From NCBI RefSeq assembly GCF_009660225.1, contig NZ_CP045920.1:2554079-2618078 (forward strand): 64,000 nt of DNA, given 5' to 3'. Source of the stretch: Pseudactinotalea sp. HY158 (lineage in GTDB: Bacteria > Actinomycetota > Actinomycetes > Actinomycetales > Beutenbergiaceae). The notes below the pieces were generated by a model. The model was given only the letters and a program-made list of their open reading frames with translations. It was not told the origin of the DNA and did not search any database. The translations under genes were made by a program, and so were the position numbers. Within the stretch, counting starts at the first letter, position 1. Each line of letters opens with the position of its first letter. Positions 43,601-61,180 of this stretch are shown here, piece after piece.

Positions 43601-44735
43601 GTGCTCGGTCAGGGTCGGGTCACTGTCCGTCTTCGAAGAGCGAGAGGGTCAGCACCGAGGAATAGCTGCCCGGGGCCACATCGGTCTCGGTACGCAGCAC
43701 CAGGTCCGCATTCGCCGTCCAACTGCCGTTCTCCGCCTGCGCCTCCTGGGAGTCGAGCGTCAGCAGGAACAACTCCTCACCCGCCAACCCGGGACCCTCG
43801 CCGACCGCGTCGAGCACGGTACCGACCTCCTGCCCCTCACCCACGGCCCCGCTCGAACTCTCGGTCACCATCGCCGGCGTCCACCCCAGGTGCTCCGGAC
43901 CGATCGAGGCCTGCCCCGCATCACCCACGAAGTCACTCGCCTGACCCACCACATACCAGTACACGCCCTCGGGCGCGTCACTGCGATCATCGGTCACGGT
44001 CACATTCGGCAACTCCCCGGTGAACTGACGGAACTCCTCGGTCGACCCGTCCTCGACCAGCGTCGACTCCGTGCCATCGACCGTCATCGTCAACGCACCC
44101 ACCGACTCGATCTCGACACCGATCTCGACCGCACTGGTGTCCTCGGCATCCGGATGCGCGGCCATCGCCGCCGTCCCCACACCCACGAGCATCACACCAC
44201 CGACCGCACCGACCACGGCACGCCCGACCACACCGCGCTGAACCACACTGCGCTTGACCATCTTCTTCTCCCATTCCGGCTCAACACCGAACCGATCGAT
44301 ACGACACAGGCCCACCGGGCCCGCGAACCACACATCACAACAACGACCCGGCCACCCGCGGGTGGCCGGCCGGGGCCGGCCCGCCCCCGGGAACACACAC
44401 CCCCGGGGAACGGACCGACCACCGACCCACTCGACCTACGAGCAGGACACCGCCTCGTAGGCGAGCACCTCCTGCCCATCCAGCCCGTCGCCGCCCGTCG
44501 CATCGACGGTGAGCTCACCGCCGTCGATCGCGACCGACCGCGTCGTGAACGCGAGCGACTTCGTCGCACCATCGGCCAGACCCACAACAGACCTGGTACC
44601 GAAGGCCGTCTCCACACTCACATCGAGCGGGACACCGGCCACATTCGTCACCGACGCCACCAACACCTGCCGACCGGCCACACACCGAGTCGTCACCGAC
44701 GTCTCCGTCAGCACCTCCGCCGGCGGCTCCGGCTC
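43601..44735. repeat. Large duplicated segment, copy B (1135 bp)
   Basis: Partner of 28315-29451. It contains the second WxL-like gene, its upstream region and the end of exoprotein 4. Outside these limits the two loci are unrelated: the DUF916 gene follows copy A, a terminator and the LSTTG gene follow copy B. The sharp boundaries suggest a recent duplication or ongoing gene conversion. Confidence 0.95.
43620..44261 (-). CDS. WxL-like surface protein, copy B
   Basis: 213 residues, identical to the protein at 28.3-29.0 kb except for one residue (GQASIGPEH here, GQAPIGPEH there). Same start (ATG 44261), SD and signal peptide. A terminator hairpin follows and no DUF916 gene is present, so if it needs a partner it must use the single DUF916 protein encoded at 27.2-28.3 kb or one outside the window. 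The LSTTG surface protein lies 248 nt downstream. Confidence 0.72.
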   Translation of the reverse strand: MVKRSVVQRGVVGRAVVGAVGGVMLVGVGTAAMAAHPDAEDTSAVEIGVEIESVGALTMTVDGTESTLVEDGSTEEFRQFTGELPNVTVTDDRSDAPEGVYWYVVGQASDFVGDAGQASIGPEHLGWTPAMVTESSSGAVGEGQEVGTVLDAVGEGPGLAGEELFLLTLDSQEAQAENGSWTANADLVLRTETDVAPGSYSSVLTLSLFEDGQ

Positions 44736-47700
44736 ACCGGCCTCGAGCCCGGTGAGGTACTCGAACCCGGTCGTCACGAACTCCTCACCCTGAGGGGCCA
44801 GGTCGTACTCCATCACGTAGTACGCGATATCGGCCTCGAGCGCCGCCGCCAGGATCGCCTGCAACGGCACATCGCCCTCACCGAGGTTCGTGAACTGCGG
44901 ACTTCCGGGACCGCCCAGGTTGATGGCGTCCTTGATGTGGAGCAGATCGATCCGGTCGCCGTAGGTCTCGAGCAGCGTCGGCACATCCACACCGGCATGG
45001 GCCGCCCAACCGACGTCCACCTGGAACGTCACGAACTCGGGATCGGTCTCGCGCACGAGGATCTCCCATGCCGAGAGCACCTCGCCCTCGTGCTCATAGG
45101 TCGTGGTGAACTCGCCGGCATGGTTGTGGCCGAAGAACTTGCCCACACCCGCCTCGACGGACCGCTGACCCAGCCGGTTCATCGCCTCGGCCGTGGCCAG
45201 CGTGTTCTCGTACGTGCCGATTCCCGGACTGGGGAATCCGCCCGAACCCACGTACTCCTGACCCACGGTCGAAACATACGCCAGCGTCTGATCGAAGCTG
45301 CCCTCGCTCACATTGTAGTGAGAGGACGGCACGCTCAATCCATTCGCATCCGCCAGTGCACGGAACTCCCCGGCCGTATAGCCGCTGTAGTTCCCGCCAT
45401 ACGGTTCGATATTCTCCAAACCGATCGAACCCAACCGGCCCAGCACCGACTCCAGCCCATCCGCATTCACCCATGGGATCAACGAATACAGCTGAATCGA
45501 CACCCGGTCGACCGGTACCACCACCGGCTCGACCGGCACCTCATCGACCACCCGGAAGTAGTCGAAGGCGACCTCGGTCGGCTCGGACTGGCTCTTGCCG
45601 ACCGTGAACAGGCCGGGCCCGGCGTCGCCGAGTCCGCTGTGCGTCACCGAGCCGGGCAGATCCGTCCACTCCTGGCCGTCATAGGAGAACGCTCCCGTGA
45701 ACGTATCGCCGGAGCGGCTGAGCCGGACGTAGTAGTCGCCGTTCTCGGAGAGCGGCAGGTCGGCGATGTCGGCCTGCTCGGGCTGCTGGAACTGCCCGTT
45801 CACCTCGGAACGGATCTCCAGGCGCAGGGGCGCCTCGTTGCCCGCCGTGTCGGCGGCGAAGACCGGGTCGACCTTGACGTAGTTGTCGGGGTCGGCGTAG
45901 ACCATGATCCCGGCCTGGTGCCACTGGCTCGAGAAGCCCGAGTTGAACTTGGTCTCCACGGTCCACTCGTCGCCCTCGACGACGGTCGAACGCAGGATGT
46001 TCGGAACGGGCTCGTTCACCGTGCCGTTGATGTCGGCATCGACCGTGGTCACCCGGTAGGCGCCGTCGCTGACCCCTGCCAGGGCCGGGTCGTAGTCGAT
46101 GATGTCCCAACGGCAGGCGTCGACCTCATCACCGTCGAACTCGTCGTCCGCCGAGATCTCGGCACCGGGGTTCGCGCACACGGGAGCCGCGGGGCCCTGC
46201 CCCGCGTCCGAGTGGAAGGCGAGCGAGTCGAGGTCGACTCCCCCGGTGCTGGTCACCACGAGCGAACCGGAACCCGCGGGGACGGTCTCGAGGGCCGCCT
46301 CGACGCTCTGCCAGCCGTCGGCTCCGGTGAACGCCAGTTCGGCGAACGGTGCCGGCTCGTCGTTCCAGCCCAGCGAGATCGTGCCCGTGCCCGTGCCCGT
46401 GGCGGTCACGGAGTCCATGACCTCACCGCTGGGAGCGTGCGTGAACGCGATCGGCGAGAAGGTGAGCGAATCGCCGTCGTCGAACTCGGTCACGTACGAG
46501 CCACCGCTGGCGCCGGCGTCGTTGACCACCGTGATGCCCTCGGCCGTGTCGTACCACTCGGCCTCCTGCAGCGTCGGCGTGAGGATGAGCGTGGCCTCCC
46601 CGGTCGTCGCCGGGACGTCGCCCTGGGCGTCGTCGGTGTAGCTCACCACGAGGGTTCCGAAGATCTTCTCTCCCGCCCCGTGGTCCTTCGCGCTCTCGCT
46701 CGTCTGGATCGTGAACTCGCACCCGGTGCCGGTGACCTCGGGGTGGGCGTGCTGGTCGTGGCCGAGCCCGAAGGTGTGCCCGACCCGCGCGCAGTCCGGT
46801 GTGTCGCCGTCCTCCGCGTCCGTGACGGACACGGTGATGTCGACGCTGTCGCCCCAGTCGAAGAACGAACCGTCGTCGACGTCGAGGGTGATCTCCGGCG
46901 CGGTGTTGCCGACCGTGATCTGCTGGACGGCCAGGCCGAAGAGGCCCTCCGGATCCGTCACGCGCAGGATCGCCTTGTACTGGCCGAGCTCGGAGTAGGT
47001 GTGGGTGATCGTCTCGCCCTGGTCGTCGATGACGCCGTCGCCGTCGAAGTCCCACTCGTAGGTGAGTGCCTCGCCCTCCGGATCGAAGGAGCCGGAGGCG
47101 TCGAAGGTCACGTCGAGCGGGGCGTCACTGCCGGAGACCTTGTCGACCGAGATCGCCGGCCGGGGGGTCTTGTTCTCCGGGTTGTAGTCGATGCGGTAGA
47201 TGCCCGCCTCCGGGTTCTGCCGGAAGAAGCCCTTGCCGTACTCGAGCACATAGAGGGAGCCGTCCGGCCCGAACTCCATGTCCATGATTCCCGACCACTC
47301 GGGTGCCGCCTGCTCGTAGAGAGCCGAGCTCGGCAGGAAGTTGGTCACGCCGGTGACCTCCCCGGCGCTCGAGAGCTCGTCCATCTCGATGGCCGCGACG
47401 TAGTCCTGGGAGAACTCGGCCATGAAGGCCTTGCCGTCCCAGTACTCCGGGAACTGAGTCGGTGAGGGGTTGGTCTCGTCGTAGCGGAAGACGGGCCCGC
47501 CCATCGGGGCCTGACCGCCGCGGCTCGAGAAGGTCACGAACTCGTCCCAGGGCTGGTCCCCGGCGTTGTCGCCGTACCAGATCTGCGGCTGCGTGACCGC
47601 CGGGAGCTCGGTCAGGCCGGTGTTCCAGGTGGAGTTGTTCACCGGGGCGGCGCAGTCGAAGAACTCACCGGGGGTGCCGGTCTCGTAGTCCCACTCGTTG

Positions 47701-48863
47701 TAGGCGCCGCCGTCGTTCGGCCCGTGGCAATAGGGCCAGCCGCCGTTCATCGGCTCGGTCGTCACCTGCCACTCGACATACCCCATGGGGCCGCGGTCGG
47801 CCTGGGCCGAACCGGAGTCGGGGCCGTAGTCGCCCCACATGAGCGCGCCGGACTCGAGGTCGTAGTCCATCCGGAACGGATTGCGCAGACCCGTGACGTA
47901 GATCTCCTCGCGCACGAGGTCCGGGTCGTACTCGGGTGAGTCGAAGAGGTTCCCGGCCGGGATGTCGTACGTGCTCCCGGGACCGGGCTCGGCGCCCTGC
48001 GCGATCTGGTCCAGAACGTCGATCCGCAGGATCGACCCGCGCAGGTCGTTGCTGTTGCCCGCGCCGCGGCGGGAGTCGAAGCCCGGGTTCATGCCCGGGG
48101 CGTTGTTGATCGGGGTGAACCCGTTCGCACCGGGCGTGCCCGCGGGGGTGTTGTCGCCCGAGGACAGATAGAGGTTGCCGTCCCCGTCGAAGGCGATGTC
48201 GGCACCGACGTGGCAGCACTGACCGCGCTGGGCGGTGATCTTGATGATCTCCTGCTCGCTCGTCAGGTCGAGGGTGTTCGAGGCGCCGTCCCACTGGAAC
48301 CGGGACAGCACGTTGTAGCCGAGCCACTGGTCCCAGTACGTGTCCGCGTCGGCTCCGTCCGGGAGCTGCTCGGGGGCGCTCCCCTGCGGTGTCGTCTCCG
48401 GGTAGGCGACCCCGGTCGGCGAGGTCCCCGCCATGACGCGCGGGGCGTAGACGAGGTAGACCCAGTTGTTCTCCTCGAAGTCCGGGTCGAGGGCGATGCC
48501 CTGGAGGCCGTCTTCGGAGTTGTTGTAGACGTCGATGTCTGCGACCTCACGGGTGAGGCCCGTCGACGGGTCCGTCAGGCGGACGACGCCGTCGCGCGCC
48601 GTGTGCAGCACGCGCGAGTCGGGCAGCACCGCCAGGTCGATCGGCTCACCGGTGTTCTTGGTGAGCAGGATCTTCTCGTAGTTGTCCCACTCGAGTGCGG
48701 GATCCTCCGCTGCGAGGGCGGCGGTACCGGCCGGGTCGGTGTCGCCGTCGTGCCCAGGATGAGCACTCGCCCCGCTGATCGCGAGCGGCAACACCAAGCC
48801 GGCGGCCATGACCGCCGCCGCGCCTCGGGCCGACCATCGGCCGGCCCTTCTCCTTCTGACCAC
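44436..48863 (-). CDS. Secreted sugar-dehydrogenase propeller fused to a TIM-barrel isomerase domain (exoprotein 4)
   Basis: 1475 residues from a GTG at 48863 with GGAGGA upstream; exoprotein 2 begins similarly (VRQ/VRR...GRWS). Signal peptide about 1-35; glucose/sorbosone-dehydrogenase propeller about 50-555, close to that of exoprotein 2 (QRGQCCHVGADIAFDGDGNL); PKD about 563-651; CBM6-like about 766-884; DUF1349-like about 898-1106; then, uniquely, a xylose-isomerase-like TIM barrel about 1118-1374 (VSIQLYSLIPWVNADGLESV, GLENIEPYGG, FFGHNHAGEF, FQVDVGWAAHAG, LLHIKDA); finally the shared C-terminal domain about 1378-1475. Codons of the TIM segment look less GC-biased than the rest, which hints that it was acquired separately. 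No LPXTG. A single exported chain thus pairs a sugar oxidase fold with a sugar isomerase fold. Confidence 0.86.
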   Translation of the reverse strand: MVRRRRAGRWSARGAAAVMAAGLVLPLAISGASAHPGHDGDTDPAGTAALAAEDPALEWDNYEKILLTKNTGEPIDLAVLPDSRVLHTARDGVVRLTDPSTGLTREVADIDVYNNSEDGLQGIALDPDFEENNWVYLVYAPRVMAGTSPTGVAYPETTPQGSAPEQLPDGADADTYWDQWLGYNVLSRFQWDGASNTLDLTSEQEIIKITAQRGQCCHVGADIAFDGDGNLYLSSGDNTPAGTPGANGFTPINNAPGMNPGFDSRRGAGNSNDLRGSILRIDVLDQIAQGAEPGPGSTYDIPAGNLFDSPEYDPDLVREEIYVTGLRNPFRMDYDLESGALMWGDYGPDSGSAQADRGPMGYVEWQVTTEPMNGGWPYCHGPNDGGAYNEWDYETGTPGEFFDCAAPVNNSTWNTGLTELPAVTQPQIWYGDNAGDQPWDEFVTFSSRGGQAPMGGPVFRYDETNPSPTQFPEYWDGKAFMAEFSQDYVAAIEMDELSSAGEVTGVTNFLPSSALYEQAAPEWSGIMDMEFGPDGSLYVLEYGKGFFRQNPEAGIYRIDYNPENKTPRPAISVDKVSGSDAPLDVTFDASGSFDPEGEALTYEWDFDGDGVIDDQGETITHTYSELGQYKAILRVTDPEGLFGLAVQQITVGNTAPEITLDVDDGSFFDWGDSVDITVSVTDAEDGDTPDCARVGHTFGLGHDQHAHPEVTGTGCEFTIQTSESAKDHGAGEKIFGTLVVSYTDDAQGDVPATTGEATLILTPTLQEAEWYDTAEGITVVNDAGASGGSYVTEFDDGDSLTFSPIAFTHAPSGEVMDSVTATGTGTGTISLGWNDEPAPFAELAFTGADGWQSVEAALETVPAGSGSLVVTSTGGVDLDSLAFHSDAGQGPAAPVCANPGAEISADDEFDGDEVDACRWDIIDYDPALAGVSDGAYRVTTVDADINGTVNEPVPNILRSTVVEGDEWTVETKFNSGFSSQWHQAGIMVYADPDNYVKVDPVFAADTAGNEAPLRLEIRSEVNGQFQQPEQADIADLPLSENGDYYVRLSRSGDTFTGAFSYDGQEWTDLPGSVTHSGLGDAGPGLFTVGKSQSEPTEVAFDYFRVVDEVPVEPVVVPVDRVSIQLYSLIPWVNADGLESVLGRLGSIGLENIEPYGGNYSGYTAGEFRALADANGLSVPSSHYNVSEGSFDQTLAYVSTVGQEYVGSGGFPSPGIGTYENTLATAEAMNRLGQRSVEAGVGKFFGHNHAGEFTTTYEHEGEVLSAWEILVRETDPEFVTFQVDVGWAAHAGVDVPTLLETYGDRIDLLHIKDAINLGGPGSPQFTNLGEGDVPLQAILAAALEADIAYYVMEYDLAPQGEEFVTTGFEYLTGLEAGEPEPPAEVLTETSVTTRCVAGRQVLVASVTNVAGVPLDVSVETAFGTRSVVGLADGATKSLAFTTRSVAIDGGELTVDATGGDGLDGQEVLAYEAVSCS

Positions 48864-49430
48864 ATTTCCTCCTCGAAATTGCGCGCCCAGATCGCGAGAT
48901 GGCACAGCAGCACGGCGACGTGAGCAGCGTCGGTTGGTCACGGGGGCGGCGTGGACACCACATGCGGCGGGCCACCGGCCCTGATTACCGTGATGTGTCC
49001 CACCCTAGTCGCAGTTTTGTAATCGTCAACCATGAAGTCTGGAGTGCAGACTCGCTCAAATGTCACACTTCTGCACAGAGAAGTCGCGTTCCGGTGCGTG
49101 ATGAACGAAAACGAGCGTCATGCCGATCGACGAGCGCGCGTTCTGCGCCGAAAACGAGCATCGAACGCCATCCTCCGGTCGAACGCCGAACCTCCCGATC
49201 GGTGACGACCATTCGGATGATCCGACCGACCGCACGTACGACATCACCCAAAGCCTCGGGCCATATGTCGATCCGCATTCCCGTTAATAGACTATCGGCT
49301 TATCCCGAAGTCACTTTCGTCGAATCGAATTCCTCGGCCATTCACCACCCGTGGCCCGGAGCGCGCCGACACGGACCGGCCACGCGGCGTCCGTCGCCTC
49401 CCGACGACCGACACGATCCGCAGCGCCGAC
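48864..49430. promoter_or_regulatory. Gene-free region with the exoprotein 4 promoter
   Basis: Minus strand TTGACG (49024-49029), 16-bp spacer, TAGGGT (49002-49007). GTCAACCATGAAGT (49025-49038) overlaps the -35 and is followed by CTGGAG as at exoprotein 2. The leader is about 140 nt. The remaining 390 nt (49040-49430) is lower in GC and contains nothing I can support. Confidence 0.65.
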
Positions 49431-50792
49431 TCAGCGCTCACACCGGGCCGGGCGGGCCTGGGCGTCCTCAGCGCCCCGTGTGTCCTGGGCGCCCCGTGTG
49501 TCCTGAGCGTCCCGTGTGTCCTGAGCGTCCCGTGTGTCCTGAGCGTCCCGTGTGTCCTGAGCGTCCCGTGTGTCCTGAGCGTCCCGTGTGTCCTGAGCGT
49601 CCCGTGTGTCCTGAGCGTCCCGTGTGTCCTGGGCGCCCTGCGTGACCTCCGCGTCCTGGGCGCCCTGGGCCGTGCCGGCCGCCGGTGCCGTGCGGGCCGT
49701 GCGGGCCGTGCGGGCCACATACTCGGCGGCGCCGTCGAGGGAGGCCTCGATCATCCCGGCGGCGCCGAGGAGTACCCGGGTCACCGCCGGCCCGAGCGCC
49801 GCGCCGGCCAGCGTCTCGCGGAGGCGCGCGAGCACCTCCCGCGCCTGCCGGTCGACCTCCACCGGCGCACCCGATCGGGCCAGCTCCGTGCGCATCGCCT
49901 CGGCGGTGGCCATGTCGAGGTCCGCGCGTCCGAGGTGATCGCGCAGGCTCGACCACACCGGCAGGGTGCGCGCGTGCAGCATGAGCGAGGTCGCCTTGCC
50001 CTCCCGCAGATCGGACAGCGAGCTCTTGCCCGTCACCTCCTCGGGCGCGAACAGCCCGACCAGGTCGTCGGCCAGCTGGAACGCGACCCCGAGGCCGTGC
50101 CCGATCTCGTCGAGCAGCTCGCGCGCGCCGGCGGGGGCGTCCGCCAGGATCGCCGCGGCCCGCACCGGGGCCTGGAAGGAGTAGAAGGCGGTCTTCTCCG
50201 CGGCGATCGACATCGCCTTCTCGTGCGAGACCTCCCACAGCCCGTGGCCCGCCGCGACGTCGTCGAGCTCACCGGCCACGCTCACGAAGATCGTGTCCCA
50301 CAGCAGCTCGGCGAGCTCCCCTCGGAGCCGGGCCGGGCCGTCCACCTCCGCCACGAGCCGGTGGGCCAGCCCGATCGCGAGATCGCCCGCGAGCACGGCG
50401 GAGGCCTCCGCGAAGTGCTGTGCCGGTGCGCTCCCCGCGCCGGCGGCCGCCGCGGCCGCATGCATGCCGGCGGCGAGGTTCGGCACCCCGCGGCGCACGG
50501 TGTCGTGATCGATGAGGTCATCGTGCACGAGGAAGCCGGCGTGCAGGAGTTCGAAGGCCGCGCCGAGCCGCGCGGCCGCCGGATGATCGCCGCCGCCGAG
50601 GCCGCGGTGCACGTCGATCACGAGCCGGCCGCGGAAGTGCTTGCCGCCGGCGACCGCGCGTCGCAACTCCCGCCACAGCAGGTCGCAGGCCGCGCCGTGG
50701 CCGGCCGCTCGGCGCCGGTTCTCGGCCATGAGCCCCTCGAGCACCGCCCCGACCTCGGGAGCGGGGCCCTGCGGGTACGCATCGTTGTTCAT
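49431..50792 (-). CDS. Polyprenyl diphosphate synthase with repeat tail
   Basis: 453 residues from the ATG at 50792 (GGAAGGTG upstream; earlier in-frame ATGs at 50912 and 50927 lie near the -10). Isoprenyl synthase fold about 30-350: FARM DDLIDHD (about 94), a Lys/Phe/Arg region at GGKHFRGRL, second Asp motif QLADDLVGLF and LREGKATSLM as in actinobacterial GGPP-type synthases. It condenses IPP with allylic diphosphates; chain length is not predictable here. The last 80 or so residues are an Ala/Arg/Thr linker and ten DTRDAQ-type hexapeptides, absent from normal family members. Divergent from the ebo-like operon, suggesting supply of the prenyl donor for the UbiA enzyme. Confidence 0.87.
   Translation of the reverse strand: MNNDAYPQGPAPEVGAVLEGLMAENRRRAAGHGAACDLLWRELRRAVAGGKHFRGRLVIDVHRGLGGGDHPAAARLGAAFELLHAGFLVHDDLIDHDTVRRGVPNLAAGMHAAAAAAGAGSAPAQHFAEASAVLAGDLAIGLAHRLVAEVDGPARLRGELAELLWDTIFVSVAGELDDVAAGHGLWEVSHEKAMSIAAEKTAFYSFQAPVRAAAILADAPAGARELLDEIGHGLGVAFQLADDLVGLFAPEEVTGKSSLSDLREGKATSLMLHARTLPVWSSLRDHLGRADLDMATAEAMRTELARSGAPVEVDRQAREVLARLRETLAGAALGPAVTRVLLGAAGMIEASLDGAAEYVARTARTARTAPAAGTAQGAQDAEVTQGAQDTRDAQDTRDAQDTRDAQDTRDAQDTRDAQDTRDAQDTRDAQDTRGAQDTRGAEDAQARPARCER
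49471..49650 (-). repeat. 18-bp tandem repeats in the prenyl synthase tail
   Basis: About ten in-frame copies of an 18-bp unit (CGTGTGTCCTGAGCGTCC on the plus strand) encoding DTRDAQ. The central eight copies are identical, the outer ones slightly diverged (DTRGAQ, DTRGAE). Length could change by slippage without breaking the frame. Confidence 0.93.
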
Positions 50793-50912
50793 CTCGGCAC
50801 CTTCCCGATCCTCACGCACTCCGGGCCCACGGTCTGGGCCCACGGTCTCCGTTCGGAGGAGCCCCCGGCGACCGTCGGCGCCTGCCGGCGGCTTCACCGG
50901 GGTGGCTTGCAT

Positions 50913-50995
50913 AGTGACGACTTTCATATAACCTGACCTGAGAGAGTGACGCAAGTTGCCGCACTTACGAACGCGAAGCCGCGACTAACGTAAGT
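50913..50995. promoter_or_regulatory. Divergent promoter region between prenyl synthase and the ebo-like operon
   Basis: Minus strand: TTGCGT, 18 bp, TATATG (50925-50930) for the synthase. An inverted repeat ACTTACG (50963-50969) and CGTAAGT (50989-50995), 19 nt apart, sits upstream, the type of site bound by a dimeric regulator acting on both directions. The plus-strand promoter of the cyclase gene was not identified with confidence. Confidence 0.5.
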
Positions 50996-51086
50996 CGGAC
51001 ACTTCGTTGCACCCTCGTCGATACAGATAGATCACAGCCGATCGCCGCTGCCACGGCGCGACGGTCACATCACAGAGGTGAGAGAT

Positions 51087-52277
51087 ATGACGACAAGCCA
51101 GGCACGTGACAACGTGGGCACGCAGGCAGGCACGGCCCGGACAGGCATCTGGTTCGTCGGAGCCCGGGGCTCGGTGGCCACGACCGCGACGATCGGAACC
51201 CTCGCCGTGAGCGCCGGGCTCTCGGACCGGACCGGACTGGTCTCCGAGCTCGAGCCGGTCGCGGCCGCGGGCCTCCTCGACGTCGGCACCCTCGTGACCG
51301 GCGGCCACGACGTCAGCAGCACCCCACTGACCGAACGCGCGCAGCTGCTCGCCGATTCCGGAGTCTTCCCGACCGCGCTCGTGCGGGCCCTGGACGCCGA
51401 GCTCGGCGCCGCCGACGCCCGCATCCGGCTCGCCCCGCAGCAGGCGACCCAGCGCGCCGTCCTCGACGCGATCGAGGCCGACATCCGCGCCTTCCAGCGG
51501 GACAACGACCTCGCCCGGGTCATCGTCGTGGACGTGAGCAACACCGAGGCCCCGGCCGCCTCCACGCCCGAACTCGACAGCCTCGCGGCGCTCGAGAGCG
51601 CGCTGGACGCCGGCGCCGCCCCCCTGCCGCAGAGCTCGGCCTACGCCTACGCCGCCTACCGGGCCGGCTGCCCGCTCGTCGCCTTCACCCCGAGCCCCGG
51701 CCCGGCCCCGGCGGCGCTCGGGGAACTGGCGGAGCAGCAGGGCCTGCCGTGGGCCGGCCGGGACGGCAAGACCGGGGAGACCCTCGTCAAGACGACCCTG
51801 GCCCCGATGTTCGCGACCCGCAACCTCGCCGTGCGGTCGTGGGCGTCCTACAACCTCCTCGGGGGCGGCGACGGCCAGGCACTCGCCGACCCGGTGGCCG
51901 TGGCGAGCAAGACCGCCACGAAGGGCGCCGGCGTCGACGCGATCCTCGGACACCACGTCGACGGCCCCCTGCGCATCGACTACGTCGAGGACCTCGGCGA
52001 CTGGAAGACCGCGTGGGACCACGTCTCCTTCGAGGGATTCCTCGGCACCCGGATGACTATGCAGTTCACCTGGCAGGGCTGCGACTCCGCCCTGGCCGCG
52101 CCCCTCGTGCTCGACCTCGTGCGGCTCGTGGCCCGGGCGCACGAGGCCGGACAGGTCGGCGTCATCGGCGCGCTGTCGTTCTTCTTCAAGGAGCCGATGG
52201 GCAGCGGTGAGCACTCGATCTCCGCACAGTGGACCGCCCTGACCGACTGGTGCGCGAAGCTCGCGCTGCCCGCATGA
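51087..52277 (+). CDS. myo-Inositol-1-phosphate-synthase-like cyclase
   Basis: 396 residues; ATG at 51087 with GAGG 9 nt upstream (an in-frame GTG lies at 51078). NAD-binding N-terminus WFVGARGSVATTATIG (about 22-37); central VVDVSNTEAPAA (about 150), then the catalytic/tetramer region with DGKTGETLVKTTLAPMF (about 230-246, with the conserved Lys), SYNLLGGGDGQ and SKTATKGAGV. MIPS enzymes convert glucose 6-phosphate to inositol 3-phosphate by oxidation, enolisation and aldol cyclisation. The GARGSVATT motif sets it apart from the mycobacterial Ino1 type, so a specialised rather than housekeeping role is likely. First gene of the ebo-like operon; its stop overlaps the UbiA gene. It takes the place of the sugar-cyclase EboD found in other ebo clusters (inference). 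Confidence 0.85.
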   Translation: MTTSQARDNVGTQAGTARTGIWFVGARGSVATTATIGTLAVSAGLSDRTGLVSELEPVAAAGLLDVGTLVTGGHDVSSTPLTERAQLLADSGVFPTALVRALDAELGAADARIRLAPQQATQRAVLDAIEADIRAFQRDNDLARVIVVDVSNTEAPAASTPELDSLAALESALDAGAAPLPQSSAYAYAAYRAGCPLVAFTPSPGPAPAALGELAEQQGLPWAGRDGKTGETLVKTTLAPMFATRNLAVRSWASYNLLGGGDGQALADPVAVASKTATKGAGVDAILGHHVDGPLRIDYVEDLGDWKTAWDHVSFEGFLGTRMTMQFTWQGCDSALAAPLVLDLVRLVARAHEAGQVGVIGALSFFFKEPMGSGEHSISAQWTALTDWCAKLALPA

Positions 52278-53146
52278 CCTCGCTGCGCGACCTCGCCGAA
52301 CTCGTGCGGCTCCCGGCCGCGCTCACCGCTCCCGGGGACGTGTTCTCGGGAGCGGCGGCGGCCGGGGCCCTGCGGGGCTGGCGGCCCGCCGCCCTCGCGG
52401 CCTCCTCCGTCTGCCTCTACTGGGCCGGGATGGCCCTGAACGACTACGCGGACCGAGACCTGGACGCCGTCGAGCGCCCGGAGCGGCCGATCCCCTCCGG
52501 CCGGGTGACCCCGGCCACCGCGCTGCGGCTCGCCGGCGGGCTCACCGCCACCGGCCTCGCCCTGGCGGCTGCGAGTGGACGGCGCCCGCTCGCCACCGCG
52601 ATCCCGCTCGCCGGCGCCGTCTGGGCATACGACCTGCTGGCGAAGCCGACCCCGGCGGGCCCGCTCGTCATGGGCTCGGCCCGGTTCCTCAACGTGCTCC
52701 TCGGCGCGTCCACCGCCCCGCGCGGCCGGCGCTCGGGCCTGCCGGCCGCACTCGCGGTCGGCACCCACGTCACGGCCGTCACCGCGCTGAGCCGCGGCGA
52801 GGTGCACGGCTCGTCCCCGGCGACCGCCCGAGCCGCGCTCTCGGTGACCGCCGCCGTCACGGCCACGGTCGCCGCGTCGTCCCTGCGCTCGGGCCGGCCG
52901 CCGGCGCGGCTGGCCGCGGCGGGGTGCGCCGCGGGATACGCGGCGAGCGTCGGACGCGCCCAGGCCGCCGCCGTCCGCAGCCCGGACGCCGGCACCGTGC
53001 GGCGGGCGACCCGCAGCGGGATCCACGGCCTCGTCCCGCTCCAGGCGGCGCTCATGGCCGGCCGGGGCGCGGTCGCGGCGGCCGCGGCCCTCCTGGCTGC
53101 CGGGCCCGCGCTGCGCGCCGGCGCGAAGCTGGTGTCGCCGACATGA
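52274..53146 (+). CDS. eboC: UbiA-family prenyltransferase (EboC)
   Basis: 290 residues, about eight membrane helices. First Asp motif NDYADRDLDAVERPERPIPSG (in part, about 55-76) is the NDxxDxxxD prenyl-diphosphate/Mg2+ site; the second site, usually DxxxD, appears as WAYDLLAK (about 117-124), weaker than usual. UbiA enzymes transfer a prenyl group to an aromatic or polar acceptor inside the membrane. The start overlaps the cyclase stop and the end overlaps the isomerase start (ATGA at both). The nearby prenyl diphosphate synthase is the obvious donor source. The acceptor is unknown; a cyclitol is suggested by context. Confidence 0.85.
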   Translation: MTSLRDLAELVRLPAALTAPGDVFSGAAAAGALRGWRPAALAASSVCLYWAGMALNDYADRDLDAVERPERPIPSGRVTPATALRLAGGLTATGLALAAASGRRPLATAIPLAGAVWAYDLLAKPTPAGPLVMGSARFLNVLLGASTAPRGRRSGLPAALAVGTHVTAVTALSRGEVHGSSPATARAALSVTAAVTATVAASSLRSGRPPARLAAAGCAAGYAASVGRAQAAAVRSPDAGTVRRATRSGIHGLVPLQAALMAGRGAVAAAAALLAAGPALRAGAKLVSPT

Positions 53147-54018
53147 GCCTGCGGCTGTCCTACGGCACGAACGGCTTCGGCGACCACCCGCTGCCCGCCG
53201 CGCTCGACGTCATCGCCGGCCTCGGCTACGACGGGGTCGCCCTCACCCTCGACCACCAGCACCTCGACCCGTTCGCGCCGGGCCTGCCCGCCCGGGTCGA
53301 CGCCGCCCGGGCCATGCTCACCGAACGCGGCCTCGGCGTGGTCGTCGAGACCGGCGCCCGGTACCTACTCGACCCCTGGCGCAAGCACGAGCCGACCCTC
53401 GTCTCGGCCGCCGGGCGCGAGCCGCGGCTCGAGCTGACCCGCCGGGCGGTCGAGATCGCGCGGGACCTCGGCGCCGACGTCGTGCACCTCTGGTCGGGGA
53501 TCCTCCCCGCCGCAGACTCCCCCGGGGCCGGCTGGGAGCGGCTGCTCGCCGGGATGTCGGAGCTCGTGCCCCACGCCGAGGCCGCGGGGGTCCGGCTCGC
53601 GTTCGAGCCGGAACCGGGGATGTTCATCGAGACCCTCGCCGACCTGCGAGAGCTGCGCCGCCGGCTCGGCTCACCGCCCACCCTGGGGGCCACGGTCGAC
53701 GTGGGCCATCTCGTGTGCATCGAGGACGAGTCGCCGGCCGACTGCATCCGCGGCGCCGCCGGCGACGTGCTGCACGTCCAGATCGAGGACATGCGCCGCG
53801 GCGTGCACGAGCACCTCGAGTTCGGCGAGGGCGAACTCGACCTGCCGGCCGCGCTCGGCGCGCTGCTCGAGATCGACTACCGCGGCCTCGTCTCGGTCGA
53901 GCTCGCCCGGCACAGCCCCACGGCCCCCGCCACCGCGGCCCGATCGATGCGGGCCCTGCGCGACGCGCTCGACCGGCTCCCCCGCTCCCCATCCCCCGCC
54001 ACCGAGGAGGCATCATGA
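53143..54018 (+). CDS. Sugar phosphate isomerase/epimerase-like TIM barrel in the ebo cluster
   Basis: 291 residues, AP-endonuclease-2-like. Motifs: LSYGTNGFGDHPLPAALDVI (about 4-23), GYDGVALTLDHQHLDPF, GADVVHLWSGIL (about 118), LAFEPEPGMFIET (about 155, metal Glu), ATVDVGHLVCIED (about 185, Asp/His), HVQIEDMRRGVHEH (about 210) and SVELARHS (about 248, second Glu). The metal site looks complete. It overlaps UbiA upstream and EboA downstream, so it is integral to the operon. It is related to but distinct from EboE two genes further on; probably acts on the cyclitol or sugar intermediate. Confidence 0.83.
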   Translation: MSLRLSYGTNGFGDHPLPAALDVIAGLGYDGVALTLDHQHLDPFAPGLPARVDAARAMLTERGLGVVVETGARYLLDPWRKHEPTLVSAAGREPRLELTRRAVEIARDLGADVVHLWSGILPAADSPGAGWERLLAGMSELVPHAEAAGVRLAFEPEPGMFIETLADLRELRRRLGSPPTLGATVDVGHLVCIEDESPADCIRGAAGDVLHVQIEDMRRGVHEHLEFGEGELDLPAALGALLEIDYRGLVSVELARHSPTAPATAARSMRALRDALDRLPRSPSPATEEAS

Positions 54019-54698
54019 CCCAGCGAGCCCGAGCCGCACTCGACGGGCGGCTCACGCCCGCCGCCGCCGACCGACTCACCGAGATGACCGCGGCGATCGC
54101 CGCCGATCCGGCCGCGATCGGGCGCCTGTTCCCGGCGGCGGCCCGCGAGGTCGCCCGCGGACCGCTCGACGAGGCGGATCCGACCGGCATCACCGGCCCG
54201 ACCCTCGACGACGCCGTCCGTGCGGTTCTGCTCGAGACCCTCGCCTCGGCGCAGCCGGACGAGCAGCGCGCCGCCGAGGTGGCGGCGCTGTACCGATACG
54301 GCGACGGCGACGAGAAGCGCGCGATCCTGCGCTCCCTGCCCGCCCTCGACGTCGGCGAGGGCGCCCGGGCGCTCGTGACCGATGCCCTGCGCACGAACGA
54401 CCTGCGCCTCGTGGGCGCGGCGATGGGCGCCTGGGCCGGGGAGCACCTCGACGACGACGCGTGGCGCCAGGGCGTGCTCAAGTGCCTGTTCATCGGGGTG
54501 CCGCTCGCGGCCGTCCAGCGCCTGCGCGAGCGGGCGGACGCCGAGCTCGCGCGGATGGTCGCGGCCTTCGGGCACGAGCGCTGCGCCGCGGGCCGGCCCA
54601 TCCCCCCGGACTCGCGCCTCGTACTCGACCACTTCCCCGAGGTCGCGGCCCGCTTCCCCGACGTCGCGGCGGCCCTGCCGACCGTCCCGGCGCCCTGA
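54015..54698 (+). CDS. eboA: EboA-domain protein
   Basis: 227 residues, alpha-helical and soluble. Recognised by the EboA pattern: a helical N-terminus, then GDGDEKRAILRSLPAL (about 97-112), TNDLRLVGAAMGAWAGEHLD (in part, about 127-146), WRQGVLKCLFIGVPL (about 150-164) and a terminal RPIPPDSRLVL. EboA is the name-giving member of the ebo cluster, required in cyanobacteria for moving a scytonemin precursor to the periplasm; its biochemical role is not known. It overlaps the isomerase stop by ATGA and precedes the TatD gene by 54 nt. Confidence 0.8.
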   Translation: MTQRARAALDGRLTPAAADRLTEMTAAIAADPAAIGRLFPAAAREVARGPLDEADPTGITGPTLDDAVRAVLLETLASAQPDEQRAAEVAALYRYGDGDEKRAILRSLPALDVGEGARALVTDALRTNDLRLVGAAMGAWAGEHLDDDAWRQGVLKCLFIGVPLAAVQRLRERADAELARMVAAFGHERCAAGRPIPPDSRLVLDHFPEVAARFPDVAAALPTVPAP

Positions 54699-54752
54699 CC
54701 TGTCCGATCACCCCCGATCCGCCGGCACCAGCCTGAACCAGGAGCAGCACCC

Positions 54753-55619
54753 ATGCGCATCTTCGACCCGCACATCCACATGTCCGCCCGCACGACCGAC
54801 GACTACGAGACCCTCCACGCCGCCGGGGTCCGGGGCCTGGTGGAACCGGCGTTCTGGCTCGGGCAGCCGCGCACGAGCGTCGAGTCCTTCGTGGACTATT
54901 TCGACTCGCTCCTGGGCTGGGAGCGGTTCCGGGCCTCGCAGTTCGGCATCGCCCACCACGCGACCATCGCGCTCAACCCGAAGGAGGCGAACGACCCCCG
55001 CTGCGTCGGCGTGCTCGATCTCCTCCCCCGCTACCTGGCCAAGGACGGCGTGGTCGCCGTCGGGGAGGTCGGGTTCGACTCGATGACGACGGCCGAGGAG
55101 TTCGCCTTCGCCCGCCAGCTCGAGCTCGCGATCGAGCACGGCCTGCCCGCGATGGTGCACACCCCGCACCGCGACAAGGCCGTGGGCACCCGGCGCACCC
55201 TCGACCTGGTCGAGGAGTCGGGGATCGACCCCGGCATGGTCGTGGTCGACCACCTGAACGAGACGACCGTGGACATGGTCGCCGACGCCGGCTGCTGGCT
55301 CGCGTTCTCCATCTACCCCGACACGAAGATGGACGAGGATCGGATGGTCGCGATCCTGCGCGAGCACGGCCTCGAGAAGGTGATGATCAACTCGGCGGCC
55401 GACTGGGGCCGCGCCGACGTGCTCAAGCCCCTCAAGACCGGTCGGGCGATGCTCGCGGGCGGCTTCAGCGAGGACGACGTGGACCGGCTGCTCTGGCGCA
55501 ACCCCGTGGAGTTCTTCGCCCAGAGCGGGCGGCTCATGCTCGACCGCGTCGAGGAGCCCGCGGCCGCGTTCGAGGGCAACTCGATCCTGCGCGGCGAGCG
55601 CAAGAGCGACGAGGACTGA
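54753..55619 (+). CDS. eboB: TatD-family metal-dependent hydrolase (EboB)
   Basis: 288 residues, amidohydrolase TIM barrel. Metal ligands in order: FDPHIHMS (HxH, about 4-11), VGEVGFDS (Glu, about 105), MVHTPHRDK (His, about 134), VVDHLNET (His, about 168) and NSAADWGRAD (Asp, about 216). TatD proteins are usually nucleases or phosphoesterases, but EboB members always occur in ebo clusters and may act on a small molecule. It follows EboA closely and is 4 nt from EboE, with GAGCAG-type SD upstream. Confidence 0.87.
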   Translation: MRIFDPHIHMSARTTDDYETLHAAGVRGLVEPAFWLGQPRTSVESFVDYFDSLLGWERFRASQFGIAHHATIALNPKEANDPRCVGVLDLLPRYLAKDGVVAVGEVGFDSMTTAEEFAFARQLELAIEHGLPAMVHTPHRDKAVGTRRTLDLVEESGIDPGMVVVDHLNETTVDMVADAGCWLAFSIYPDTKMDEDRMVAILREHGLEKVMINSAADWGRADVLKPLKTGRAMLAGGFSEDDVDRLLWRNPVEFFAQSGRLMLDRVEEPAAAFEGNSILRGERKSDED

Positions 55620-55623
55620 CCGG

Positions 55624-56793
55624 ATGCGCCTTCGACACCCGGACGGCTCCCTCATCCACCTGGCCTACTGCAGCAACGTCCACCCCGCCGAGGATCCGGA
55701 GGGGATCCACGCCCAGCTGCGGCGCTTCGCCGGGCCGGTGCGCGAGCGCCTCGGCGTGGACCGGCTCGGCGTGGGGCTGTGGCTGCCCGCCGCCACCGCC
55801 GCCCTCCTCGCCGCCGACGCCCGCAAGCTCGACGCGCTCCGGGCCGTGCTCGACGAGCAGGGCCTCGAGGTCGTCACCCTGAACGCGTTCCCCTACGGCG
55901 GATTCCACGACCGGGTGGTCAAGCACCGCGTGTACCGGCCGGACTGGACCGAGCCGGAGCGGCTCGCCTTCACCCTCGACGCGGCCACCGTGCTCGCCGG
56001 GCTGCTGCCCGGCGATGCGGCCCGCGGGAGCATCTCCACGCTCCCGCTCGCCTGGCACACGCCCTGGTCCGACGACGCCCGCGGCCTCGCCCGGGCCAAT
56101 CTGGACGCCCTCGCCGTCGGCCTGGAGCGGCTGCGCGAGCGCACCGGCCGGCACATCCGCGTCGGCTTCGAGCCGGAGCCGGGCTGCGTGATCGAGACGA
56201 CGGAGGAGGCGATCGCCGAACTCGCCGGGGTCGACACCACCCATCTGGGGGTGTGCGTCGACGCCTGCCACCTCGCCACCGCGTTCGAGGACGCCGGGAC
56301 GGCGGTCGCGGCCCTGGCCTCGGCCGGGCTGCCCGTGGTCAAGGCCCAGCTGTCCGCGGCGCTGCACGTGGCCGACCCGGCCGCGGCCGCGACCCGGGAG
56401 CTGCTCGAGGAGTTCGTGGAGGAGCGCTTCCTGCACCAGGTGCGCGAGCCGGCCCCGGGCGGGGGCCTGCTGCACCGCGACGACCTGCCGGACGCGCTCG
56501 CCGGCGACGCCCTGCCGGCGAGCGAACCCTGGCGGATCCACTTCCACCTGCCGCTGCACGCCGCCCCGAGCGCGCCGCTGGCAGGAACCGGCGCCGAACT
56601 CGTCGAGACCATGCGTGCACTCGTCGGCGGCGACCGGCCCCTGACCGACCACCTCGAGGTGGAGACCTATACCTGGACCGTGCTGCCCGAGGGGCAGCGC
56701 CCGACCGACGACGCGGGCCTCGTGGCCGGCATCGCCGCCGAGCTCGCCCAGGCCCGCAGCCACGCCCACGACCTCGGACTGGAGAACGCATGA
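55624..56793 (+). CDS. eboE: EboE, TIM-barrel 'metabolite traffic' protein
   Basis: 389 residues, xylose-isomerase-like barrel of the EboE type: LIHLAYCSNVHPAEDPEGI (in part, about 11-30), VVTLNAFPYGGFHDRVVK (about 82-99), GFEPEPGCVIETTEEA (about 181-196, metal Glu), LGVCVDACHLATAFED (about 209-224, Asp/His), VVKAQLSAALHV (about 239), and HFHLPLHAAP (about 303). EboE is essential in the studied cyanobacterial and Pseudomonas clusters, yet its reaction is undefined. The Glu and His/Asp ligands argue for a real isomerase or lyase. ATGA overlap with the EboF gene. Confidence 0.87.
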   Translation: MRLRHPDGSLIHLAYCSNVHPAEDPEGIHAQLRRFAGPVRERLGVDRLGVGLWLPAATAALLAADARKLDALRAVLDEQGLEVVTLNAFPYGGFHDRVVKHRVYRPDWTEPERLAFTLDAATVLAGLLPGDAARGSISTLPLAWHTPWSDDARGLARANLDALAVGLERLRERTGRHIRVGFEPEPGCVIETTEEAIAELAGVDTTHLGVCVDACHLATAFEDAGTAVAALASAGLPVVKAQLSAALHVADPAAAATRELLEEFVEERFLHQVREPAPGGGLLHRDDLPDALAGDALPASEPWRIHFHLPLHAAPSAPLAGTGAELVETMRALVGGDRPLTDHLEVETYTWTVLPEGQRPTDDAGLVAGIAAELAQARSHAHDLGLENA

Positions 56794-58160
56794 CCAAGCT
56801 GCTGGTGCTCGACGTCGTGGGGCTGACCCCCCGCCTGCTCGAGCACATGCCCCGACTGCGCCGGGTCGCCGACCGCGGCTACCAGGCCACCCTCGAGACC
56901 GTGCTGCCGGCGGTCACGTGCTCCGCCCAGTCGACGTTCCTCACCGGGCTGCTGCCCACCGACCACGGCATCGTGGGCAACGGCTGGCTGTTCCGCGACC
57001 TGGGCGATGTGCTCCTGTGGCGCCAGCACAACGGCCTCGTCGAGGGCGAGAAGCTGTGGGAGACCGCCCAGGCGACCCGTCCGGACCTGACCGTGGCGAA
57101 TATCTGCTGGTGGTACGCCATGGGCGCGACCGTCGACACGACCGTCACGCCCCGACCGGCCTACTACGCGGACGGGCGCAAGGAACCCGACTGCTGGACC
57201 TGGCCCCCCTCGGTCCACGACCGGCTCGTGGCCGAACTCGGCCCGTTCCCGCTGTTCACGTTCTGGGGCCCGGGCGCCTCGATCGCCAGCTCGGAGTGGA
57301 TCATCGGCGCGACCCGCATGCTCATGCCCGAGCACGACCTCACCCTGTCCTACGTGCCCCACCTCGACTACGACCTGCAGCGCTTCGGGCCCTCCGGACC
57401 GGAGGCGATCCGGGCCGCGCGCGAGGTCGACCGGGCGCTCGCCCCGCTGCTCGACGACGCCGACCGGCTCGGCGCCCGGGTCGTGGTGCTGAGCGAATAC
57501 GGGATCACCGACGTCTCCCGCGCGGTCGACGTCAACCGGGTGCTGCGCCGGGCCGGACTGCTGCACGTGCACCACAACGAGACGGGCGAGATCCTCGACA
57601 CCTGGACCTCACCGGCCTTCGCGGTCGCCGATCATCAGGTCGCCCACGTCTACGTGCGCGACGAGGACGACATCCCCCGGGTGCGCGACCTCCTCGCCGA
57701 CGTTCCCGGGGTCGGGCAGGTGCTCGACGCCGAGGGCAAGCGGGAGCAGGGGCTCGACCATCCCCGTTCGGGCGAGCTCGTGCTCGTGGCCGAGCCGGAT
57801 TCGTGGTTCACCTATTATTACTGGCTCGACGACGCGAACGCCCCCGACTTCGCCCGGCTCGTGGAGATCCACAAGAAGCCCGGCTACGACCCGGTCGAGC
57901 TGTTCATGGATCCGCAGGATCGCTGGGTCAAGCTCCGGGCGGGTGCGGCCCTCGCGCGGAAGAAGCTCGGGATGCGTTACATGATGGACGTCGTCCCCCT
58001 CGATCCCGCGCCGCTGCGCGGCAGCCACGGCAGGCTCCCGGCCGACCCGCTCGACGGGCCGGTGCTGCTGTGCTCGGACCCGGCCGCGCCGCGCACCCAG
58101 GTGCGGGCCGTCGAGGTGCGCGACCTGTTGCTCGACCTCGTCGGCGGCCGCGCCGGCTGA
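56790..58160 (+). CDS. eboF: Alkaline-phosphatase/nucleotide-pyrophosphatase superfamily protein (EboF-like)
   Basis: 456 residues. Metal and nucleophile sites: LLVLDVVGLTP (Asp8), PAVTCSAQSTFLTGLLPTDH (Thr/Ser nucleophile region, about 40-60), VPHLDYDLQRFG (about 190), VVLSEYGITDVS (about 232) and VADHQVAHVY (about 280). In most relatives the fourth motif is SDHG; here SEYG replaces it, so one metal site is altered, although cluster members may share this. Predicted to hydrolyse a phosphodiester or phosphate monoester of the pathway product. Last gene of the operon. Confidence 0.83.
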   Translation: MTKLLVLDVVGLTPRLLEHMPRLRRVADRGYQATLETVLPAVTCSAQSTFLTGLLPTDHGIVGNGWLFRDLGDVLLWRQHNGLVEGEKLWETAQATRPDLTVANICWWYAMGATVDTTVTPRPAYYADGRKEPDCWTWPPSVHDRLVAELGPFPLFTFWGPGASIASSEWIIGATRMLMPEHDLTLSYVPHLDYDLQRFGPSGPEAIRAAREVDRALAPLLDDADRLGARVVVLSEYGITDVSRAVDVNRVLRRAGLLHVHHNETGEILDTWTSPAFAVADHQVAHVYVRDEDDIPRVRDLLADVPGVGQVLDAEGKREQGLDHPRSGELVLVAEPDSWFTYYYWLDDANAPDFARLVEIHKKPGYDPVELFMDPQDRWVKLRAGAALARKKLGMRYMMDVVPLDPAPLRGSHGRLPADPLDGPVLLCSDPAAPRTQVRAVEVRDLLLDLVGGRAG

Positions 58161-58455: not shown

Positions 58456-59838
58456 CTAGGCGGCGCCGTTGACCCAGGGGCTCGGGTCTGCGAGCACTCC
58501 CCGCAGCACCTCGCGGGCCCCGCCGGTGAGCGCGGCGAAGTCTCGGACCGGGGCGATGAGCAGGTCGACCGGTTCGTGCGGGGCGTAGAGGACCCCGCGG
58601 TCGAGCCATTCCCGGATGGCGGGCCGCAGCTGCTCGAACAGCGGGGCGTAGATCCCGCCGAGCACGACGGCCTCGACGTCGACGATGTTGACGTAGTCGG
58701 CCAGGGCCCGCCCGAGCGCATCGGCGGCCGTGGCCACGGCGGACCTGGCCCGCGCCCCCTGCTCCCCCGCGGACCGCAGGGCCGCGGTGAGGTCGTCGAG
58801 TCCGGCGGCGGGTGCGAGTCCGGCACCGGGTGCGAGTCCGGCACCGGGTGCGAGTCCGGAACCGGGTGCGAGTCCGGCACTGGGTGCGAGTCCGGCAGCG
58901 GGTGCGAGTCCGGCAGCGGGTGCGAGTCCGGCAGCGGGTGCGAGTCCGGCGGCGGCTTCGATTCCGGCAGCGGGTGCGAGTCCGGCAGCGGCGAGGATCG
59001 CCCCCTGGCCCGCGTACTGCTCGAGGCAGCCGTGGTTGCCGCACCGGCACACCGGCCCGCTCCGGTGCACGACCACGTGGCCGATCTCGCCGCTCCACCC
59101 GTGCCGGCCCTCGAACAGCTCGCGGTCGAACAGGATCGCCGAGCCGATCCCGACCCCGCCGGAGACGTAGACGAACGATCCGGGGAGCTCGACCTCGCCC
59201 CGGGTGCGCGCCGCGGCCCGCATCGGGGTCTGGGCGAGGCCGGCGAGCTTGGCCTCGTTGCGCACCCCCACGTCCATGCTGGACAGGCCGAGCGGTGCGA
59301 GCGGGTCGAGGTCGCGCCAGCCCAGGTTCGGGGCGATCTCGAGCCGCCCGGCGCTCGCGCGCACGAGTCCGGGCAGCGCGAGCCGGGCGCCCGCCACGGT
59401 CATTCCGCCGGCCTCGACCCCGCGGACGAGCTCGCGCGCCAGGTGCCCGAGCTGCCCGAGCACCTGGCCGGGCTCGGAGCCGGCGAAGTCGCCGCTGAGG
59501 ATCTCCTGCGCCACGACCTCGCCGGTGAGGTCGAGTATCCGCGCCCCGACGTAGCCGAGGTTCACCTCGAGGCCCAGGCCCACGAGCGATCGGGGCGCAG
59601 GGGCCAGGGGAACCCCCGGCCGGCCCACCCCGCGGGCCGCGGGCAACGGGAGCTCGCGCACGATGCGGGCGGAGATGAGCCGATCCACGAGGGTGGAGAC
59701 CGTCGCCCTCGTCAACCCCGTGCGGGCGGCGACGCCCGCACGCGAGGGCGGGGCTGCGTCGTCATAAATCACATCGACCACCGCGGCGAGGTTGAGTTCA
59801 CGCAGGCTGTGCTGCCCGGCGGCGGTGGTCGTAGTCAC
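58456..59838 (-). CDS. ROK family transcriptional regulator with repeat insert (divergent from xylA)
   Basis: 460 residues, GTG start. Winged helix about 12-62 (SRAGVAARTGLTRATVSTLVDRL, in part); ROK domain with LGLEVNLGYVGARILDLTGE (about 87), EAKLAGLA (about 198), and the zinc motif CRCGNHGCLEQYAG (about 265-278). Directly after the zinc motif comes an insert of roughly 65 residues, mostly GLAPAA hexapeptides, before the fold resumes at LDDLTAAL. Likely repressor of the adjacent xylA (XylR-like); the inducer would be xylose or a relative. The start is 6 nt from a -10 box. Confidence 0.87.
   Translation of the reverse strand: MTTTTAAGQHSLRELNLAAVVDVIYDDAAPPSRAGVAARTGLTRATVSTLVDRLISARIVRELPLPAARGVGRPGVPLAPAPRSLVGLGLEVNLGYVGARILDLTGEVVAQEILSGDFAGSEPGQVLGQLGHLARELVRGVEAGGMTVAGARLALPGLVRASAGRLEIAPNLGWRDLDPLAPLGLSSMDVGVRNEAKLAGLAQTPMRAAARTRGEVELPGSFVYVSGGVGIGSAILFDRELFEGRHGWSGEIGHVVVHRSGPVCRCGNHGCLEQYAGQGAILAAAGLAPAAGIEAAAGLAPAAGLAPAAGLAPAAGLAPSAGLAPGSGLAPGAGLAPGAGLAPAAGLDDLTAALRSAGEQGARARSAVATAADALGRALADYVNIVDVEAVVLGGIYAPLFEQLRPAIREWLDRGVLYAPHEPVDLLIAPVRDFAALTGGAREVLRGVLADPSPWVNGAA
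58798..58990 (-). repeat. 18-bp tandem repeats inside the ROK regulator gene
   Basis: About eleven copies of GCGAGTCCGGCAGCGGGT with minor variants, in frame, encoding (G/S)LAP(A/G)(A/G/S) hexapeptides. They fall in the loop after the zinc motif. Copy number may vary by slippage while the frame is kept. Confidence 0.92.
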
Positions 59839-61158: not shown

Positions 61159-61180
61159 GTCTCGGCCCGGCGCCACCCAG

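Follow-up and report, generated by a model that had tools for sequence, protein, structure and literature searches.

A seven-gene operon in a 64,000-nucleotide stretch of DNA from Pseudactinotalea sp. HY158 (hereafter the window, taken from a complete actinobacterial genome of 3.65 Mb) belongs to a widespread, new variant of the ebo cluster, in which a cyclase of the myo-inositol-phosphate synthase (MIPS) type occupies the place of EboD. As in the known eboABCDEF cluster (PMC5133447; PMC6282210), EboA, EboB, EboE, EboF, a UbiA-superfamily prenyltransferase and a sugar-phosphate cyclase are combined in one operon. The variant differs from that cluster in its cyclase, which is of the nicotinamide adenine dinucleotide (NAD)-dependent, phosphate-retaining MIPS type rather than the EboD or dehydroquinate-synthase type, and in having an extra TIM barrel, a UbiA protein of the SCO3242 subfamily and, often, sugar-oxidation genes on its flanks. 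We estimate a probability of about 0.6 that the operon encodes a variant of the ebo pathway that uses the NAD-dependent cyclase instead of EboD and yields a membrane-anchored prenyl-cyclitol; its product, prenylation and role are what we infer. For EboD-type clusters, an isoprenoid-cyclitol had been proposed before, with BE-40644-type prenylated cyclitol-derived metabolites, which also involve a cyclase and a UbiA-superfamily prenyltransferase, as a precedent (PMC5133447). Databases annotate the actinobacterial genes singly, for example at locus L111, and we found no paper in the open-licence literature describing how MIPS takes EboD's place, how EboC changes along with it, or the sugar-oxidation genes around the cluster.

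The operon (51078-58160, forward strand) is tight and encodes, in order, the MIPS-like cyclase, UbiA, the TIM barrel, EboA, EboB, EboE and EboF, and a prenyl diphosphate synthase gene is divergent from it (Table 1). An earlier note, made from the letters of the window, had named these genes, and all were recovered at their places with Pfam and curated models. Four junctions (MIPS/UbiA, UbiA/TIM, TIM/EboA and EboE/EboF) are 4-bp ATGA overlaps, and translation across them is therefore probably coupled. The EboB and EboF of the window align with those of annotated EboD-type clusters. EboA did not reach the cut-off of the stricter EboA_family model NF035937 (74 bits against 320); its AlphaFold model is all-helical with a mean predicted local distance difference test score (pLDDT) of 96, and a comparison of this fold with the PDB gave no convincing match.

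The replacement of EboD, which the earlier note had put forward, was borne out by the distribution of the two cyclases. Not one cluster contained both, among 107 with MIPS and 15 with EboD. Actinobacterial clusters in EboE-anchored neighbourhoods had MIPS in 36/38 cases in the class sample and 9/10 in the phylum sample, and EboD in none, whereas plasmid clusters of Pseudomonadota, Deinococcota and Bacteroidota (6/6) and clusters of Planctomycetota (9/10) had EboD and no MIPS. The window holds no EboD. Nor is one hidden elsewhere in the same genome, where the sole member of the dehydroquinate-synthase family is AroB (339 bits, cut-off 305). A separate EboD in genomes carrying the MIPS gene would have spoken against a replacement; when the EboD profile was run over 60 whole EboE-bearing Actinomycetes genomes, no match exceeded 181 bits, compared with at least 367 bits for ebo-linked EboD.

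The association between MIPS and the ebo genes was measured across 395 evenly sampled Actinomycetes genomes, in which the MIPS scores leave a wide gap: ebo-type proteins score at least 295 bits, followed by a handful at 134-241 and the rest at about 70 or lower. EboE was found above the cut-off in 90 genomes, and 84 had it together with the ebo-type MIPS, which never occurred without EboE. Its copies lay within 8 kb of EboE in 82 of 88 cases. This arrangement is far beyond chance (Fisher p ≈ 2e-79 for co-occurrence per genome, uncorrected for relatedness). Six genomes had EboE only: in four (G492, G516, G619 and G738) it was isolated, with no other ebo genes, one (G483, locus L233) had a cluster without MIPS, and the sixth (G699) fell outside the neighbourhood extraction. 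In a named collection of 80 further MIPS-anchored loci, the full cluster including the TIM barrel was present in 57 and an ebo-type EboD in none. A Gfo/Idh oxidoreductase gene lies in the fetched region of all four clusters in which no cyclase was seen (L095, L233, L257 and L283); in L095, genes for an inositol-monophosphatase-family protein and an FAD oxidoreductase are also found near EboC.

The exclusivity did not extend to MIPS proteins at large. In Planctomycetota, MIPS of the same broad type was present in 142/246 genomes, unlinked to EboE where coordinates were comparable, and could coexist with EboD clusters; the exclusion that the earlier note had asked to see tabulated is therefore limited to ebo-linked genes. 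We considered whether this MIPS could account for the planctomycetes reported to lack eboD (PMC5133447) and rejected the idea, given its lack of linkage to ebo genes wherever a comparison was possible and the presence of EboD in most of the clusters seen. The majority of planctomycete EboE genes (L248-L281) stand alone, with no other ebo genes within 9 kb, and EboE-like proteins may therefore have a role outside ebo.

The window protein has both Pfam MIPS domains and the catalytic lysines, which places it within the myo-inositol-phosphate synthase superfamily. Its closest solved relative is Archaeoglobus fulgidus Ino1 (PDB 1u1i; 8.6e-65), with which it shares all catalytic residues. Positions K274, K278, K306, K367, N255, D225, D261 and D332 of that enzyme are invariant in 168/168 collected MIPS sequences; deposited A. 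fulgidus Ino1 variants carry mutations at K278, K367 and N255, and we take K274, K306, D225, D261 and D332 to be catalytic. Where it differs from A. fulgidus Ino1 is in being tied, in Actinomycetota, to ebo operons and in being distinct from the mycothiol Ino1 of its own genome. With the mycothiol Ino1 model TIGR03450, the window protein scored 21 bits against a cut-off of 638, and a separate gene elsewhere in the genome scored 697.8 bits. A housekeeping inositol synthase, the identity that would have undone the earlier note's proposal, is thereby ruled out for the MIPS-like gene. With mycothiol Ino1 and AroB encoded separately and the catalytic residues invariant, the ebo-linked protein looks like an additional and catalytically competent cyclase. 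A MIPS relative with a different product does exist, namely the five-membered-cyclitol-phosphate synthase of PDB 6k96. In Streptomyces genome G633 (L090), the MIPS gene of the cluster is fragmentary (C3:552927-553262) and a full copy is found on another contig. Plasmids of Hymenobacter and Roseomonas carry a MIPS gene with genes for a Gfo/Idh oxidoreductase, a YcaO-like protein, a TIM barrel and a PIG-L deacetylase (L363, 7926-14552; L364, 7971-15323); these clusters have no ebo genes and look like a different cyclitol pathway.

The prenyltransferase in the EboC position is also of a distinct type. Its two best-scoring models are the related SCO3242 family (NF045897) and EboC equivalog (NF035940) models, and its score with the latter was 157 bits, below the cut-off of 250. 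The N-D-x-x-D-x-x-x-D motif is kept, and a search for specificity-determining positions in EboC gave only four weak columns that differ. In Streptomyces coelicolor, the same UbiA family name and an adjacent MIPS annotation occur at SCO3242/SCO3243, listed with the calcium-dependent antibiotic (CDA) cluster (PMC3610822); there they appear only in an expression table, one as a putative transferase and the other as a MIPS, and the literature searched contained no link between them and ebo. The extra TIM barrel, which the earlier note had not counted as part of the swap, is a near-constant companion of the MIPS/EboC pair: it was present in 33/36 MIPS-type clusters of the class sample and in Gemmatirosa (320 bits), while haloarchaea have two more distant copies. 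The best Foldseek matches of its AlphaFold model (pLDDT 93) were to UlaE and to D-tagatose 3-epimerases, with E values from 1e-16 to 1e-15; this predicted resemblance would suit an enzyme acting on a keto-cyclitol or keto-sugar.

Outside Actinomycetota, MIPS-type clusters were found in Gemmatirosa kalamazoonensis (L112) and in several haloarchaea (L051, L052, L075 and L094; the annotated records are from Natronococcus, Halobaculum and Halocatena). The haloarchaeal clusters bring together TatD, TIM, UbiA, TIM, MIPS and EboF; no EboA was seen in them, and no EboE above the cut-off. In the EboF tree, Gemmatirosa falls among EboD-type clusters of Proteobacteria, in the EboB tree among those of Deinococcus, and in both trees the haloarchaea are beside EboD-type planctomycetes. 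A single MIPS-type group was rejected by the approximately unbiased (AU) test for EboF (p-AU 0.0004) and for EboB (p-AU 5e-58), with three changes in each tree. About three changes are thus needed, and the swap apparently took place in the actinobacteria and in two more lineages. The EboC tree behaves differently: the MIPS-type EboCs of Actinomycetota, Gemmatirosa and haloarchaea all lie on one side of a branch with support 99/98, and placement of the haloarchaeal EboC with planctomycetes (p-AU 0.014) or of the Gemmatirosa EboC with Proteobacteria (p-AU 0.0016) was rejected. This tree was used unrooted, since several outgroup rows misbehaved when it was rooted with housekeeping UbiA. The groups compared were defined once a quick initial tree had been seen, so all of these p values are somewhat optimistic.

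EboC thus follows the cyclase while EboB and EboF do not, and in the simplest reading the cyclase and prenyltransferase seem to travel together, as one unit, to different ebo backbones. Such joint movement in turn suggests a shared intermediate, and it is the best evidence so far suggesting that the cyclase product, perhaps modified, is the prenyl acceptor. With MIPS-type clusters dispersed over the trees of EboB and EboF, and with EboC following the cyclase in type, these phylogenies support the swap more strongly than did the arguments of the earlier note.

The features of the window are collected in Table 1. A promoter scan of the divergent region gave nothing. The ROK-family component is present at 35 loci. 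In both genes flanking the operon, an 18-bp tandem repeat recurs in frame about ten times, at 49464-49656 in the C-terminal tail of the prenyl diphosphate synthase and at 58797-58991 in the ROK regulator. A long array of 155/216-bp tandem repeats (61180-62070) lies downstream of the xylose isomerase gene.

Table 1. Genes of the ebo-type locus and its neighbours in the window.
Feature	Position	Strand	Evidence
Polyprenyl/prenyl diphosphate synthase, putative donor supply	49431..50792	-	PF00348 1.5e-42; start ATG 50792
Archaeal-type myo-inositol-phosphate-synthase-like cyclase, in EboD's place	51078..52277	+	PF07994 4.7e-44; PF01658 2e-32
UbiA-superfamily prenyltransferase, EboC position, SCO3242 subfamily	52274..53146	+	NF045897 348 bits (cut-off 260)
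TIM barrel, ketose-3-epimerase-like	53143..54018	+	PF01261 4.1e-43
EboA, all-helical	54015..54698	+	NF035938 157 bits (cut-off 50)
EboB, TatD-like metal hydrolase	54753..55619	+	PF01026 4e-12
EboE, xylose-isomerase-like TIM barrel	55624..56793	+	NF035939 421 bits (curated cut-off 250)
EboF, type I phosphodiesterase/nucleotide pyrophosphatase family	56790..58160	+	PF01663 8.4e-62
Probable exported multidomain glucose/sorbosone dehydrogenase fusion; recurrent neighbour type, outside the core operon	44436..48941	-	Pfam matches
ROK-family regulator; recurrent neighbour type	58456..59838	-	PF00480 5e-29

In the pathway that we propose, the MIPS-like enzyme would form an inositol phosphate by cyclising a hexose 6-phosphate, of which glucose 6-phosphate is the simplest candidate; the enzyme's competence is judged from the conserved residues. 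The TIM barrel could then epimerise or isomerise a keto form of the cyclisation product, and the SCO3242-type EboC would add a prenyl chain to the cyclitol, as the co-segregation of cyclase and EboC types suggests. The donor in this genome would come from the adjacent prenyl diphosphate synthase. EboB, EboE and EboF, the last as a phosphate-ester hydrolase, would complete the molecule, with EboA perhaps serving as a scaffold. The end product would be a prenyl-cyclitol anchored in the membrane and acting at or outside it. MIPS, EboC and the TIM barrel would together form a head-group module, exchangeable for EboD and its EboC on a conserved backbone.

The gene at 44436-48941 introduces a second theme, which the earlier note had overlooked. 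Its product combines a glucose/sorbosone dehydrogenase (GSDH) with PKD, CBM6 and DUF1349 domains and a TIM barrel akin to 3-keto-glycoside eliminases, similar to PDB entries 8tcs, 8tcd and 8bvk, the last of which is AtOGE (PMC10628242). A GSDH gene was found within about 10 kb of 63/107 MIPS-type clusters (20/45 in the EboE-anchored sample), and the same test gave 0/15 for EboD-type clusters and 0/31 for isolated EboE loci. Its companions are genes for ThuA, 3-keto-disaccharide hydrolase, levoglucosan-dehydrogenase-like Gfo/Idh proteins, TIM barrels and sugar ABC transporters, and similar neighbours occur in haloarchaea. An EboD-type cluster of Salipiger adjoins a dehydrogenase of a different family, dependent on pyrroloquinoline quinone (PQQ); in the genome of the window, the search for pqqE gave only a sub-threshold radical S-adenosylmethionine match.

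Such a neighbourhood could mean that the whole locus, ebo genes included, serves the catabolism of oxidised or anhydro sugars in a levoglucosan-type 3-keto pathway and not the synthesis of a lipid. The GSDH counts and the accompanying dehydrogenase, ThuA, hydrolase and transporter genes, in haloarchaea as well, are in keeping with this. However, such neighbours are absent within 9 kb from more than half of the MIPS-type clusters in the EboE-anchored sample, and a MIPS cyclase with a prenyltransferase is a biosynthetic combination. To our knowledge, levoglucosan and 3-keto-glycoside pathways include no ebo genes, MIPS or prenyltransferase. The flanks do resemble them in levoglucosan dehydrogenase, eliminase-like TIM barrels and 3-keto-disaccharide hydrolase (PMC7676230, PMC10628242), but at MIPS-type ebo loci these genes are neighbours only. 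Elsewhere, ebo clusters act in scytonemin maturation (PMC6282210), and we regard a catabolic locus as very improbable. It is unlikely, too, that the only role of MIPS is to make free inositol, for use in phosphatidylinositol, mycothiol or osmoprotection, with a regulatory reason for its adjacency to ebo and an EboC that prenylates an unrelated, for example aromatic, compound. The abundant, EboE-unlinked planctomycete MIPS would suit a general role of the family, and EboC takes 8-hydroxyquinoline-2-carboxylic acid in vitro (PMC9235831); against this stand the separate mycothiol Ino1, the absence of any ebo-type MIPS without EboE from the Actinomycetes sample, the tracking of cyclase type by EboC type and the mutual exclusion of MIPS and EboD. 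Also unlikely, finally, is a cyclitol that is made and used unprenylated, with EboC and the cyclase on separate branches; their genes would then co-segregate because, lying side by side, they were transferred together. The adjacency of MIPS and EboC, which overlap by 4 bp, would allow such co-movement by linkage alone, and a single MIPS origin was not rejected. Linkage alone fails, however, to explain why EboF and EboB stayed behind in Gemmatirosa and the haloarchaea, or why EboC was exchanged at each cyclase swap.

Several observations weigh against the prenyl-cyclitol pathway proposed here. The sole biochemistry on an ebo EboC is the in vitro farnesylation cited above, in which the acceptor is aromatic. 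Four clusters have no cyclase at all, and the EboD-type loci came from few phyla, with cyanobacteria and Pseudomonas outside the sample. The EboE tree points in the same direction as those of EboB and EboF, but is compatible with a single clade of MIPS types (p-AU 0.11, in a tree that has no haloarchaeal rows). The Gemmatirosa case is one genome, and the haloarchaeal EboC placement depends on p = 0.014. Resolution in the MIPS tree is poor and one origin was not rejected (p-AU 0.31), so that the module may have arisen once or several times. The prenyl diphosphate synthase, whose closest PDB entry is farnesyl diphosphate synthase 8f8f (1e-25), has homologues next to about 9/107 MIPS-type clusters in several families (among them L015, L104, L204, L205, L207, L231, L237 and L239), but EboD-type clusters have none alongside. 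What the earlier note had taken for a dedicated synthase does recur, but as an optional partner and no constant part of the cluster.

More tentatively, and with considerable doubt, the module may provide an exchangeable head group for a family of membrane-anchored prenyl-cyclitols shared by bacteria and archaea, in which the MIPS-type product would be a lipid or cofactor needed by secreted sugar-oxidising enzymes (GSDH, ThuA and 3-keto-glycoside enzymes). An ebo product serving exported oxidising enzymes is a speculation that fits both the neighbourhood and the periplasmic step in scytonemin formation (PMC6282210); if true, it would also explain why ebo is required in that step. Repeated exchange of EboD for an unrelated cyclase, with the prenyltransferase changing in step, points to both enzymes working on one molecule, and the swap suggests a concrete pair of starting compounds, an inositol phosphate and a short prenyl diphosphate. 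Since the substrates and products of MIPS are well known and commercially available, the actinobacterial variant may make the product of ebo clusters easier to reach than it is through the EboD type.

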